From NCBI GenBank assembly GCA_013331795.1, contig DUFP01000009.1, forward strand, positions 1-54,372: a stretch of DNA of 54,372 bases, read 5' to 3'. Below the pieces are notes generated by a model. The model had not been told where the DNA came from, ran no database searches, and saw nothing but the letters and a program-made list of their open reading frames with translations. The translations under genes were made by a program, and so were the position numbers. The stretch is from Nanobdellota archaeon. GTDB lineage: Archaea; Nanobdellota; Nanobdellia; SCGC-AAA011-G17; GW2011-AR17. Shown piece by piece: positions 38,004-42,875 of the stretch (position 1 is the stretch's first letter; each line of letters starts with the position of its first letter).

Positions 38004-38048
38004 AAAAACACCTAAATCTTTATATTTTGAAAATTGTCTTGTAAGGTC

Positions 38049-40070
38049 ATGGGTATTGATGCAGCAGAGCAAATAGAAAAATTTCAGGAGTTTGTTGAGC
38101 AAAGCTATCAGCAACAGCTGCATGAGCATATGAATAAGGGTTTGCAATTTATTCTTATTGATTTCTTTGATCTTACAAAATATGATCCTAAACTTGCTGA
38201 TCAGTTATTATTGGAGCCTGAAGAAACAATTAAGGCTGCAGAAATGGCTTTAGAACAGTTTGAAGTAAAGAAAGGTTTTCGTGTGCGCTTTCGAAATCTT
38301 CCTAAGTCTGAAGAAATTTTTATTCGTAATCTGCGAAGCAAGCATCTTCTTAAATTTATTGCAATAGAAGGGATTATTAGACAAAGTTCTGAAGTACGAC
38401 CGCAGGCAGTAAGTGCAAAATTTGAATGCCCTTCTTGTGGGAATACTATTACTATGCCACAAATTGATCAACAGTTTCGAGAACCAACACGATGTAGCTG
38501 TGGCAGGAAAGGAAAGTTTCGATTATTGTCTAAAGATCTTGTTGATGTGCAAAGGCTTGTTATTGAAGAGTCTCCAGAGAATCTTGAGGGAGGAGCACAA
38601 CCGAAAAGAATGCAGATATTTTTACGAGAAGATCTTGTTGAGCCGAGAATGGAGAGAAGGACTACACCTGGAACACGAATTATTGTGAATGGCTCTTTGT
38701 ATGAAGTGCCTATACAAACCAAAACAGGTGCTACATCTACGCGGTTTGATTTGGCAATGCAGGCAAATTATATTGAACCTGTAGAAGAGGATTATTCTGA
38801 AATAAATATTACTCCTGAAGATGAAAGAGAAATTAAGAAGTTGGCAAAGGACAAAGATATTCATAATAGGCTTATTCGTAGCATTGCACCTTCCATTTAT
38901 GGGCATGAAAAAATAAAGGAAGCAATTCTCTTGCAATTATTTGGTGGGATTCGAAAAACAAAGAAGGATGGAACGATTGTACGAGGAGATTTGCATGTGT
39001 TATTAGTTGGTGATCCTGGAGCGGGTAAGAGCCAAATGCTTACCTTTGTGAATAATACTGCGCCGAAATCAAGGTATGTTGCAGGACGATCTGCGAGTGG
39101 GGCGGGATTAACGTGTTCGGTTGTGAAAGATGAGTTTCTTCGAGGCTGGGCACTAGAAGCAGGTGCGATGGTTCTTGCTGATAAAGGGATTCTTGTTTTA
39201 GATGAGATGGATAAAATCTCTAAAGAGGATACTTCTGCACTTCATGAGGCGATGGAACAACAGCACATTAGTGTTGCAAAAGCGAATATCCAAGCTACTT
39301 TGAGAACCCAGACGAGTATCCTTGGAGCAGCAAACCCAAAATTGGGAAGGTTTGATCCCTTTACTCCTATCCCTAATCAAATTGATATGCCTCCTGCTTT
39401 GATTAATAGATTTGATTTGATTTTTGTTATTCGTGATATTCCTAATAAAGAATTAGATGGGCATATTGCTACGCGAGTTCTGCAATCTCATGCATATAAG
39501 GATTCCAAGCCAGAATTTGAAGCTCCTTTTATTCGAAAATATCTGGCGTATGCAAAGCAGAAGATATTTCCTGTGCTTACTGATCAAGCAGTAGAAACTA
39601 TTAAGAAATTTTATGTGGAGTTGCGTTCGACTGGATCTACTGGTGATGGAACAATTAAGCCTATCCCTATTTCTGCAAGGCAGTTAGAAGCAATTGTGCG
39701 ATTGGCAGAAGCATCAGCGCGAGTTAAGTTGAAGAAAAATGTAGAAGAAGAGGATGCTTTACGGGCTATAGCTCTTATGAAGTGGTGCATGACAGAAGTT
39801 GGGATGGATCCTGAAACAGGAAAAATAGATATTGATCGAATGACTACAGGAATTAGTGCTTCTACTCGAGGAAGAATTATTGATGTGAAGGAAGTTCTTT
39901 ATGCATTATCTGAAGAAAAGCAAGGTGGGCCTATAAGTATTGAAGATGATTTGAAACCTAAAGTTTTTGAGAAAGGTATTACTGAGAAAAAATTGGAAGA
40001 AGCTATTGACATGTTGAAGAGAGCTGGGGATTTTTATGAGCCTAAAAAAGGTTGGTTGCAAAAGATTTAA
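38049..40070 (+). CDS. mcm: Replicative DNA helicase MCM
   Basis: Hexameric 3'-5' helicase at archaeal replication forks. The N-terminal part has an oligonucleotide-binding domain and a zinc ribbon with CPSCGN and CSCGRK cysteine pairs. The AAA+ core has Walker A VGDPGAGKSQML (about residues 320-331), Walker B ILVLDEMDKI, sensor-1 ILGAANP and the arginine finger in INRFDLIFVI. A C-terminal winged helix (about residues 610-673) follows. The ATG at 38049 is chosen over an upstream TTG because an aaggt ribosome binding site precedes it and a TATA-like tttatattt lies about 25-30 bp upstream. 673 aa, no intein. The 3' end overlaps the CPBP protease gene by 4 nt. Confidence 0.96.
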   Translation: MGIDAAEQIEKFQEFVEQSYQQQLHEHMNKGLQFILIDFFDLTKYDPKLADQLLLEPEETIKAAEMALEQFEVKKGFRVRFRNLPKSEEIFIRNLRSKHLLKFIAIEGIIRQSSEVRPQAVSAKFECPSCGNTITMPQIDQQFREPTRCSCGRKGKFRLLSKDLVDVQRLVIEESPENLEGGAQPKRMQIFLREDLVEPRMERRTTPGTRIIVNGSLYEVPIQTKTGATSTRFDLAMQANYIEPVEEDYSEINITPEDEREIKKLAKDKDIHNRLIRSIAPSIYGHEKIKEAILLQLFGGIRKTKKDGTIVRGDLHVLLVGDPGAGKSQMLTFVNNTAPKSRYVAGRSASGAGLTCSVVKDEFLRGWALEAGAMVLADKGILVLDEMDKISKEDTSALHEAMEQQHISVAKANIQATLRTQTSILGAANPKLGRFDPFTPIPNQIDMPPALINRFDLIFVIRDIPNKELDGHIATRVLQSHAYKDSKPEFEAPFIRKYLAYAKQKIFPVLTDQAVETIKKFYVELRSTGSTGDGTIKPIPISARQLEAIVRLAEASARVKLKKNVEEEDALRAIALMKWCMTEVGMDPETGKIDIDRMTTGISASTRGRIIDVKEVLYALSEEKQGGPISIEDDLKPKVFEKGITEKKLEEAIDMLKRAGDFYEPKKGWLQKI

Positions 40071-40750
40071 ATTAAGCCTAGAATTATAATAGCTATTCCT
40101 ATTTGTGCTGTATCTGCAAGTGCGTGAACTAACCAACAGGAATAAAGATCTTTGTACCTGTCAAAAATAAAATTCATTAGAATTGCATACGCACTTAATC
40201 CAACTGTAACAATAAGAAAAAAAGGTAAAGTAAACCAGTTATAGTAGAACATCATGTGATGAAGTGAGAATGCTAATCCAGTAATAATGTATGCTTTATT
40301 TCCTATATTCTCTTTCATTTTTTTGAATATGAAACCTCTCCAAAAAAATTCTTCTAGTAATGAGTTTATGAATATAATATATGCCCCTATGAAGATAATG
40401 TTTGTTGTATTAATTGTTGCTACTAACTCGAGCTTTTGTATAATTGAAGATATATCCACAAAGCCTTTTAAGAGAAAAAATGTAGTTATATATATAAGGG
40501 CTATCCCTAGGCCTAGGATACACATCTTCTTCCATGTATTTTTCACTGTTTTGAAAGAAAAATTTTCTTGATATATATTTTTTAAAGACTTTTTTTCTAT
40601 GTATATGTAATAAAATAATGGGAAAAGGAAAATAAGCTTGTATAGAGAAGAAAAAAGATAATTTGTCGGAAGGAAAAGTCTGCTTAGAATTAAAAATATT
40701 GGTGAAAGAAGAATAAGTCCAAATAAAATACTTAGTTCTTTTTTATTCAT
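40067..40750 (-). CDS. CPBP family intramembrane metalloprotease (CAAX protease-like)
   Basis: Multi-pass membrane protein of the CAAX-processing/bacteriocin-processing family. The motif order is EEFFWRGFIFKKM (EExxxR), then LAFSLHHMMFYYNW (the H of the FxxxH-type motif), with a third His possibly in CWLVHALADTAQIG. About seven hydrophobic segments are visible. The start MNKKELSILFG at 40750 is preferred over the ATG at 40768 because the TATA-like tttatataat shared with trxB lies 21-30 bp before it. Members cleave prenylated proteins or small peptides in bacteria and eukaryotes; the archaeal substrate is unknown. It is divergent from trxB across a short, shared promoter. Confidence 0.85.
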   Translation of the reverse strand: MNKKELSILFGLILLSPIFLILSRLFLPTNYLFSSLYKLIFLFPLFYYIYIEKKSLKNIYQENFSFKTVKNTWKKMCILGLGIALIYITTFFLLKGFVDISSIIQKLELVATINTTNIIFIGAYIIFINSLLEEFFWRGFIFKKMKENIGNKAYIITGLAFSLHHMMFYYNWFTLPFFLIVTVGLSAYAILMNFIFDRYKDLYSCWLVHALADTAQIGIAIIILGLI

Positions 40751-40802: not shown

Positions 40803-42875
40803 ATGGAAGATGTTATTATCATTGGTGGGGGCGCTGCAGGTTTAGGCGCAGCATTGTATTGTGCGCGATTTACTTTGAAAACTACTGTTCTTGCAAAAGA
40901 ATATGGCGGGACAGGGAATATTGCACACCTTGTTGATAATTGGATTGGAGAGCCTGGAATTGCAGGGTCTGATCTCATGCAGAGGTTTCTTTCTCATGTA
41001 AAAGAGTATAAAGTCCCACTTATTGAGGCAGAAGTTACTTCCATTGAAAAAACTGCAAAAGGTTTTGCTGTGCAAACAAAAGAAAAAAAGAAATATGAAA
41101 GTAAAACCATCCTTTTTGCAAATGGTATGACTCATAGAAAATTAGGCGTACCTGGAGAAAAAGAATTTTCGGGTAAGGGTGTACATTATTGCTATACATG
41201 TTTAGTCCCTGGAGCTGAAATTATAACTAATCCCGATGTAAAGGATATACAACTTTTAAATGATGAGAAAGTACTTACCCATGAAGGTAGGTATAGTCAG
41301 TTTTTAGAAAAAGTTGAAGTTCCTTATTCTGGAGAAGTATTATCTATTATTCCGAGATACTTCTATGGTGAAACAAAAGTTACTCCTCAGCACAGAGTTC
41401 TCGCAGTTAAAAAAACTTGGAAATATTCTAAGTCCCTTACAGAACGTTTAAAATTAATTCCTGATTGGATAGAAGCTTCTGATCTAAAAAAAGGAGACTA
41501 TGTAGCTTATCCTATTCTTAAGGGGATTAAGGATATATTTTATTTGGATTTACATAGATATCTTCCAGAGAAGCTTATTGATGGAGATTTTATTAAAGAG
41601 CAGAATTGGAGTCCGACTGCAAAAAAATTACCTAAGCAAGTGGAGCTTAGTAGAGGTTTATTACGACTTTTTGGGTATTATATAGCAGAAGGTAATCTCG
41701 GTCATAATGGCATAGATTTTTCTTTTAATAATAAGGAAGAAGTTTATGTTAAGGATATTCAATTTTTACTCCTGCAAATATTTGGATTAGAGGGCAAAGT
41801 TACAAGAGAAGGTAAAGTCTTAGGCATATATTGCTATTCGAGGGTATTAAGAGATCTCTTTAAAACTCTTTTTGGGGAGTATGCTCATGCTAAAAAAATA
41901 CCTCAAGAATTTATGTTTCTGCCTAAGGATAAACAAATGGAACTTGTAAAAGGTATGTGGAGAGGAGATGGTTGTTTGAGAGAGAAGGATTTTTGTTATG
42001 TTACAAGTTCTAAAAAGTTAGCTTATCAATTAAAACTTATTCTTTTGCGTTTTGGAATTATACCTCGATTTGAGATAAGACTGAAGGAGAAATTAAAATC
42101 TTCATATATCCACAATAGAGAAATTAAATTTAATCATGATAAATACCATATTTACATCTCTGGTGCATATCTTGAAAAAGGTGAAAAGATATTAGGAATT
42201 CCTCATCCTAGAACTAAATCTAGAAATCGAATTATGAATTATGGATGGACAGACCAAAACTATGCTTACCTTCCTATTCGTAAAATACAATCTTCTTATT
42301 ATTCTGGTAAAGTTTATGACTTAACTGTTGAAAATGCCCATTCTTATACCACTTCTAACTTATGTGTTCATAATTGTGATGGTCCATTATATCGAGGCAA
42401 GACTGTTGCGATTATAGGTGGTGGTGATGCAGCTGCGTTGGGGACATTATTTATGAATGGCTATGCAAAGAAGATTTATGTAATTTATCGGGGTGGAAAA
42501 TTACGAGCAGAGCCTATTTCTGCACAGAAAGTGTATAAGATGAAAAAAGCAGAAGTTATTCATAACACAAATATCGTTGAGATTTATGGAGAGAAATTTG
42601 TGAAAGGTATAAAGACTGATACAAAGAAAGATATCAAAGTTGATGCAGTTTTTATTGAAATAGGGCATTTACCCTTGAATGATCTTGCGAAAAATATTGG
42701 TGTCAAACTTGATGAAAAAGGATTTATTTCTGTTGATAAAAATCATGCAACGAATATTCCTGGCGTGTTTGCCGCTGGTGATATTACTAATGCGACTTCT
42801 TTGAAGCAATTTATTACTTCTGCTGCTGAGGGGTCTATAGCTGCACAAGGCGTGTATTCTTATTTGCAAAAGTAA
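40803..42875 (+). CDS. trxB: Thioredoxin reductase interrupted by an intein
   Basis: FAD/NADPH-dependent reductase of thioredoxin. N-extein residues 1-132 start MEDVIIIGGGAAGLGAALYCARF (FAD site) and end GVHYCYT. The C-extein resumes CDGPLYRGKTVAIIGGGDAAALG (active site and NADPH site) and ends VPGVFAAGDIT...QFITSAAEGSIAAQGVYSYL. After splicing the active site is Cys130-Tyr-Thr-Cys133, a normal TrxR CxxC. The spliced protein is 298 aa, normal for the family. The 392-aa intein sits exactly between the two redox cysteines, so the second one is the intein's +1 cysteine. Without splicing the enzyme would lack a working active site. A TATA-like box at 40771 precedes the ATG. Confidence 0.94.
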   Translation: MEDVIIIGGGAAGLGAALYCARFTLKTTVLAKEYGGTGNIAHLVDNWIGEPGIAGSDLMQRFLSHVKEYKVPLIEAEVTSIEKTAKGFAVQTKEKKKYESKTILFANGMTHRKLGVPGEKEFSGKGVHYCYTCLVPGAEIITNPDVKDIQLLNDEKVLTHEGRYSQFLEKVEVPYSGEVLSIIPRYFYGETKVTPQHRVLAVKKTWKYSKSLTERLKLIPDWIEASDLKKGDYVAYPILKGIKDIFYLDLHRYLPEKLIDGDFIKEQNWSPTAKKLPKQVELSRGLLRLFGYYIAEGNLGHNGIDFSFNNKEEVYVKDIQFLLLQIFGLEGKVTREGKVLGIYCYSRVLRDLFKTLFGEYAHAKKIPQEFMFLPKDKQMELVKGMWRGDGCLREKDFCYVTSSKKLAYQLKLILLRFGIIPRFEIRLKEKLKSSYIHNREIKFNHDKYHIYISGAYLEKGEKILGIPHPRTKSRNRIMNYGWTDQNYAYLPIRKIQSSYYSGKVYDLTVENAHSYTTSNLCVHNCDGPLYRGKTVAIIGGGDAAALGTLFMNGYAKKIYVIYRGGKLRAEPISAQKVYKMKKAEVIHNTNIVEIYGEKFVKGIKTDTKKDIKVDAVFIEIGHLPLNDLAKNIGVKLDEKGFISVDKNHATNIPGVFAAGDITNATSLKQFITSAAEGSIAAQGVYSYLQK
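41199..42374 (+). mobile_element. Intein with LAGLIDADG homing endonuclease in TrxB
   Basis: 392 residues encoded in frame inside trxB. The N-terminal splicing block begins CLVPGAEI (Cys1) and block B is VTPQHRVLAV (TxxH at about residues 62-65). The endonuclease has two LAGLIDADG-type helices, LLRLFGYYIAEG (about 154-165) and ELVKGMWRGDG (about 248-258). The C-terminal blocks are VYDLTVENAHSYTTSN (372-387) and CVHN ending at Asn392, followed by +1 Cys. All expected residues for the canonical Cys/Asn/Cys mechanism are present, and both endonuclease acids are kept, so it should splice and may still home. Its codon use looks like its surroundings. Confidence 0.95.

Follow-up and report, generated by a model that had tools for sequence, protein, structure and literature searches.

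An intein between the two redox cysteines of archaeal thioredoxin reductase

Inteins are found in native sites that generally prefer conserved positions near the active sites of their hosts (PMC3359363). In two systems, an engineered DnaE intein and the MoaA intein of Pyrococcus abyssi, a disulfide between Cys-3 of the N-extein and the catalytic Cys1 of the intein blocks splicing (PMC3922620; PMC10663303). In the P. abyssi PolII intein, a disulfide between Cys1 and Cys+1 can block splicing (PMC3922620).

The window, the whole 54,372-nucleotide stretch analysed here, encodes the thioredoxin reductase TrxB with an intein inside it. The CxxC redox site is split exactly, and the second cysteine lies directly 3' of the intein. 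The original prediction had named this position, the residues and the Cys-3/Cys1 pair, all of which are exact, and had cited MoaA as a precedent, which is real. It had also cited no thioredoxin reductase intein known at this point. In the open-access literature covered, a search for a trxB or thioredoxin reductase intein likewise returned only trxB strains and fusion tags, and papers on DPANN inteins contained nothing on trxB. The allele itself recurs in nine archaeal genomes and is likely to be undescribed.

Anatomy of the split thioredoxin reductase

The trxB frame (40803-42875, plus strand) encodes 690 aa with 0 internal stops. An in-frame ATG is also present upstream at 40749, and intein-free orthologues align from the Met at 40803. 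The junctions are HYC130-Y-T↓C133-LVPGAEI and SNLCVHN524↓C525-DGP, where the arrow marks the splice point. Cys130 is Cys-3, Cys133 is Cys1 of the intein, Asn524 is the end of the intein, and Cys525 is Cys+1 (Table 1). The joined exteins read C-Y-T-C, as in orthologues.

Table 1. Coordinates of the features of the split trxB gene in the window
Feature	Positions	Strand	Basis
TrxB N-extein, aa 1-132, ending HYC130-Y-T	40803..41198	+	Gap-free against intein-free orthologues
Intein, 392 aa, Cys1-Asn392 (precursor aa 133-524)	41199..42374	+	Intein_splicing, LAGLIDADG_3, same-site homologues
Intein block B, TPQH, aa 194-197	41382..41393	+	T, P and H invariant in 9/9 alleles
LAGLIDADG motif 1, LLRLFGYYIAEGNL (aa 289-302 region), acid Glu296	41667..41708	+	E/D in 9/9 alleles
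LAGLIDADG motif 2, VKGMWRGDGCLR region, acid Asp389	41946..41981	+	RGDG invariant in 9/9 alleles
C-terminal splice junction, C-V-H-N↓Cys+1	42363..42377	+	V522, H523, N524 and C525 invariant in 9/9 alleles
TrxB C-extein, aa 525-690 and stop, starting Cys525-DGP (second redox Cys)	42375..42875	+	

The host shows the features of a low-Mr thioredoxin reductase, with two nucleotide-binding domains, a CxxC between them, a match to TIGR01292, and sequence and fold matches to TrxR in the PDB. TIGR01292 matches the frame in two halves (E 1.3e-81) and falls below its full-length cut-off, as expected of a split frame. Pfam identifies Pyr_redox_2, also in two halves, together with Intein_splicing (PF14890, 4e-10) and LAGLIDADG_3 (PF14528, 1.6e-13), all past cut-off. 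At 42489-42518, the usual HRRxxxR motif for NADPH is replaced by YRGGKLR, and the motif is altered in three relatives as well (L020, L022, L085). Because of this replacement, the electron donor of the enzyme may not be NADPH.

The intein possesses the residues of class 1, namely Cys133, a TxxH block B, His523-Asn524, and Cys525, and these are present in 9/9 alleles, the free position of block B aside. Its two LAGLIDADG motifs contain GYYIAEG and WRGDG, and the catalytic acids are retained in every allele. This anatomy is that of an ordinary class 1 homing intein. None of the other eight alleles shares one further cysteine of the window allele, Cys521 in C-V-H-N↓C (42363-42374), three residues ahead of the last Asn. 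Cys521 adjoins Cys+1 and could form another disulfide.

The predicted fold of the precursor has a mean pLDDT of 82 and matches the TliVMA intein and, on both sides of the split, Sulfolobus TrxR-B3. This model supports a precursor composed of two folded parts, though residues 126-131 at the junction have a pLDDT below 50, which leaves the Cys-3/Cys1 geometry at low confidence.

Distribution and mobility of the trxB intein

We scanned 84,980 genomes with a degenerate DNA pattern encoding V-H-N-C-D-G-x-[hydrophobic]-[F/Y]. The scan returned 21 loci, seven of which are trxB with an intein at exactly the codon used in the window; these came from records labelled Thermoplasmata, Euryarchaeota, Micrarchaeota (two), Aenigmatarchaeota, Pacearchaeota, and Woesearchaeota. 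One and the same locus is meant by L022 and G208. None of the bacterial and viral matches of the scan, five of them viral, is trxB. An eighth further bearer (G057) belongs to the order of the window genome and has CDA, which places it outside the pattern. The pattern is strict, and the count is a lower bound; the intein is thus carried by at least nine archaeal genomes, including the window's, from DPANN lineages and Thermoplasmata. A site unique to the window genome is therefore rejected.

The nine inteins are homologous, are 392-396 aa long, and share 35-68% identity within the compared set. Cys-3, Cys1, and Cys+1 are present in all nine TrxB alleles. Among the searched genomes, the allele occurs in 3/371 of the window's phylum, 2/196 of the Micrarchaeota group, 2/250 of the Thermoplasmata group, and 1/145 of the Aenigmatarchaeota group, and is rare and patchy across these archaea.

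The site is empty in three genomes of the same genus (G002, G006, and G003), and alleles cluster by insertion site, both of which are signs of mobility. Both LAGLIDADG acids are retained in all nine alleles, so the endonuclease is probably active. The kinship of the inteins is partly at odds with that of their hosts. The inteins of a Woesearchaeota bearer (L034) and a Thermoplasmata bearer (L017) are 60% identical to each other and approximately 41-42% identical to that of a third bearer (L019), whereas the three exteins are all 51-53% alike. This pattern suggests transfer across phyla. A phage or plasmid source was sought and rejected; the best matches were only 22-27%, in other hosts, and 0/5 viral pattern matches was TrxB.

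Related inteins in the searched archaea are hosted by RadA, SufB, IscU, a PHP protein (TIGR00375-like), an acetyl-CoA-synthetase-like enzyme, the beta subunit of 2-oxoacid:ferredoxin oxidoreductase (OFOR beta), ABCE1, and others. RadA, OFOR beta, and ABCE1 were identified by domain check, and SufB, IscU, PHP, and Acs from their junction motifs. In a maximum-likelihood tree of 62 related inteins, each host site with several members forms one group (TrxB, OFOR beta, IscU, SufB, PHP). The TrxB group has support of 92/89, and the RadA inteins branch closest to it. Grouping by site is the expected product of site-specific homing.

Several of these inteins lie directly 5' of a conserved cysteine. 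They include those of the IscU-like (12 loci) and SufB-like (10 loci) Fe-S scaffold proteins, among them L063, L064, L096, L105, L107, L109, and L112, and L067, L069, L071-L073, L114-L116, L118, L120, and L135. The OFOR beta intein that splits CPGC is found at L103 (1456-3468) and eleven further loci; across the groups searched, it occurs more often than the TrxB intein. The ABCE1 intein (L140, 1239-4043) lies in the ferredoxin-like domain (CISCGI↓CVRKCP) of a Thermoplasmata-group genome and has Cys at -3. The window genome contains other inteins, two in RadA and at least one each in Cdc6, a DUF362 protein, EF-2, DNA polymerase II DP2, RtcB, and aRF1, on contigs C29, C20, C26, C14, C21, and C33 (L066, L075-L080).

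The cysteine pair and predicted redox-sensitive splicing

We consider it probable, from the sequences compared, that a class 1 LAGLIDADG homing intein of an archaeal clade has settled in highly conserved trxB codons and that redox sensitivity is a by-product of its landing site. A mobile intein would have homed between the two redox cysteines. With its CxxC interrupted, the precursor would be inactive as a reductase. Cys1 would attack the Thr132-Cys133 bond, Cys525 would accept the N-extein, and cyclisation of Asn524 would release TrxB with C-Y-T-C. Under oxidising conditions, a Cys130-Cys1 disulfide, at CxxC spacing, would block the first splicing step, a consequence of the site rather than an evolved regulatory switch. 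Homing alone explains the intact endonuclease motifs, the absence of the intein from sister species, and the clustering by site.

By analogy with MoaA and DnaE, we rather expect that this disulfide makes splicing redox-sensitive in vitro. This is a fair prediction because the same Cys-3/Cys1 pair is present, and its CxxC spacing is one that lends itself readily to oxidation in the mature enzyme. Any Cys1 intein at this site would be expected to show the pair, since the reductase itself requires Cys-3 and Cys+1, and Cys1 is family-wide. Cys1 is general in the clade and is also found at sites where residue -3 is not cysteine, such as SufB (IEG↓C), IscU (GNP-V/T↓C), PHP (PAH↓C), and RadA (SEF↓C). 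Cysteine occurs at -3 in 3 of ~12 host sites, compared with 9/153 Cys residues in the ORFs of the window (binomial 0.03, post hoc). This weak excess is covered by the general preference of inteins for conserved positions near active sites (PMC3359363).

The original prediction had proposed a possible feedback switch, with the enzyme matured only under reducing conditions. In an evolved switch of this kind, the intein would be kept because the Cys130-Cys1 disulfide delays TrxB maturation in an oxidised cell and lets it proceed once reducing power returns, a feedback loop on the reductase of the cell. The chemistry is possible and the cysteine pair is present, but the sequences show no selection as a switch, and homing suffices. 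We regard an evolved switch as unlikely. In its favour are the three cysteines kept in 9/9 alleles, the measured MoaA precedent (PMC3922620; PMC10663303), and the thiol system of the window genome. No full TrxB other than the split one was found in the window genome or in six other bearers. In the window genome (974,666 bases, ~90% complete), TIGR01292 returned no second TrxB, and one candidate with a strong Pyr_redox_2 match (C11, L001) was rejected for want of a significant blastp match to TrxB. The genome has one thioredoxin-family match, a 94-aa protein with a CTHC motif, and two peroxiredoxins past cut-off. A thiol chain thus exists, and judged from this gene content it likely depends on the split TrxB alone.

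Against the switch, the active site of the host and the chemistry of splicing already dictate these cysteines, and their conservation is uninformative on regulation. Sister species live without the intein, and two Thermoplasmata-group bearers (G392 and G396) carry a second, intact TrxB free of it. A reductase held back just when the cell is oxidised has no obvious use. A 2014 review found no demonstrated physiological role for conditional splicing (PMC4031507); more recent reviews make the case for such roles (PMC10663303).

A wider form of the switch would have one archaeal intein family act as redox-gated maturation switches placed separately on the CxxC of TrxB, OFOR beta, and ABCE1. In TrxB, the Cys130-Cys1 trap would be reduced by thioredoxin or by TrxB itself, making control of the reductase autocatalytic and bistable. 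The presence of the same clade in these three unrelated CxxC sites, and in other Fe-S and redox hosts, could hint at a benefit. We hold this form to be quite improbable.

It is very improbable that the intein is an inactive or cleavage-only remnant and trxB a broken gene. The assembly comes from a metagenome, which would allow for such a reading, but all splicing residues are kept, the frame is open, and in other genomes the frames with an intein at this site are likewise intact. Once joined, the exteins of the window align with the intein-free trxB of same-genus G002 over 897/897 bases, with 85.8% identity and gap 0, and are 79% and 75% identical to those of G006 and G003. Extein dN/dS is 0.08 against G002 and 0.06 against G006, for which synonymous sites are near saturation. 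The value of 0.08 indicates strong purifying selection that preserves the spliced TrxB. From this selection on the exteins, we infer that the precursor is spliced in the cell.

A chimeric contig that fused an intein with trxB has a negligible probability; the window genome is a draft of 41 contigs, but homologous inteins occupy the identical codon in eight other genomes, the junctions are exact, the empty alleles are gap-free, and the window and G002 both have the order MCM - trxB - glutamate-dehydrogenase-like gene. An assembly artefact, which the original prediction had listed as a way to be refuted, is ruled out by these comparisons, and the pseudogene reading is rejected with it by the dN/dS of 0.08. 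The MCM gene upstream of trxB in the window (38034-40070) is intein-free, and the MCM of same-genus G004 (L090) ends an intein, SHN↓CGKSQMLTF.

Comparison with described inteins

The trxB intein recurs, is apparently undescribed, and interrupts a central redox enzyme; a single genus naturally contains both empty and filled forms of the site. The long debate over inteins as redox sensors or simple parasites becomes directly testable with it, because these forms coexist within a genus and because the predicted trap disulfide, the active-site pair, and the function of the host share one chemistry. Sister inteins whose -3 residue is not cysteine can serve as natural controls, and those at the CxxC sites of OFOR beta and ABCE1 as parallel cases.

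The RadA inteins of the window genome (L066) and of G002 (L065) group with the TrxB inteins (85/77). They differ in their length of 450 aa and in their site, SEF↓C, which has no Cys at -3. The inteins of OFOR beta (WCPG↓CGD) and ABCE1 (CGI↓CVRKCP) belong to the same family and directly precede a cysteine that has Cys at -3, but they lie elsewhere in the 62-row tree. These cysteines are part of iron-sulfur motifs, unlike the redox-active disulfide of TrxB.

TliVMA (7qss, 7qsu), an archaeal class 1 LAGLIDADG intein, shares with the trxB intein the two-domain fold, Cys1, TxxH, His-Asn, and Cys+1. The host and site differ, and identity in the structural alignment is ~20%. The trxB intein has both cysteines of the blocking Cys1/Cys+1 disulfide of the PolII intein (PMC3922620), which sits in a different host and has no reported role for Cys-3. 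In its cysteines the trxB intein also resembles the P. abyssi MoaA intein, where the N-extein has Cys-3 as well, next to a catalytic Cys1, and a disulfide of the two can block the first splicing step (PMC3922620; PMC10663303). Redox control has been measured for the MoaA intein and is predicted from sequence for TrxB. MoaA is a radical-SAM enzyme, whereas TrxB is itself the disulfide reductase, with Cys-3 as one member of its redox-active pair.
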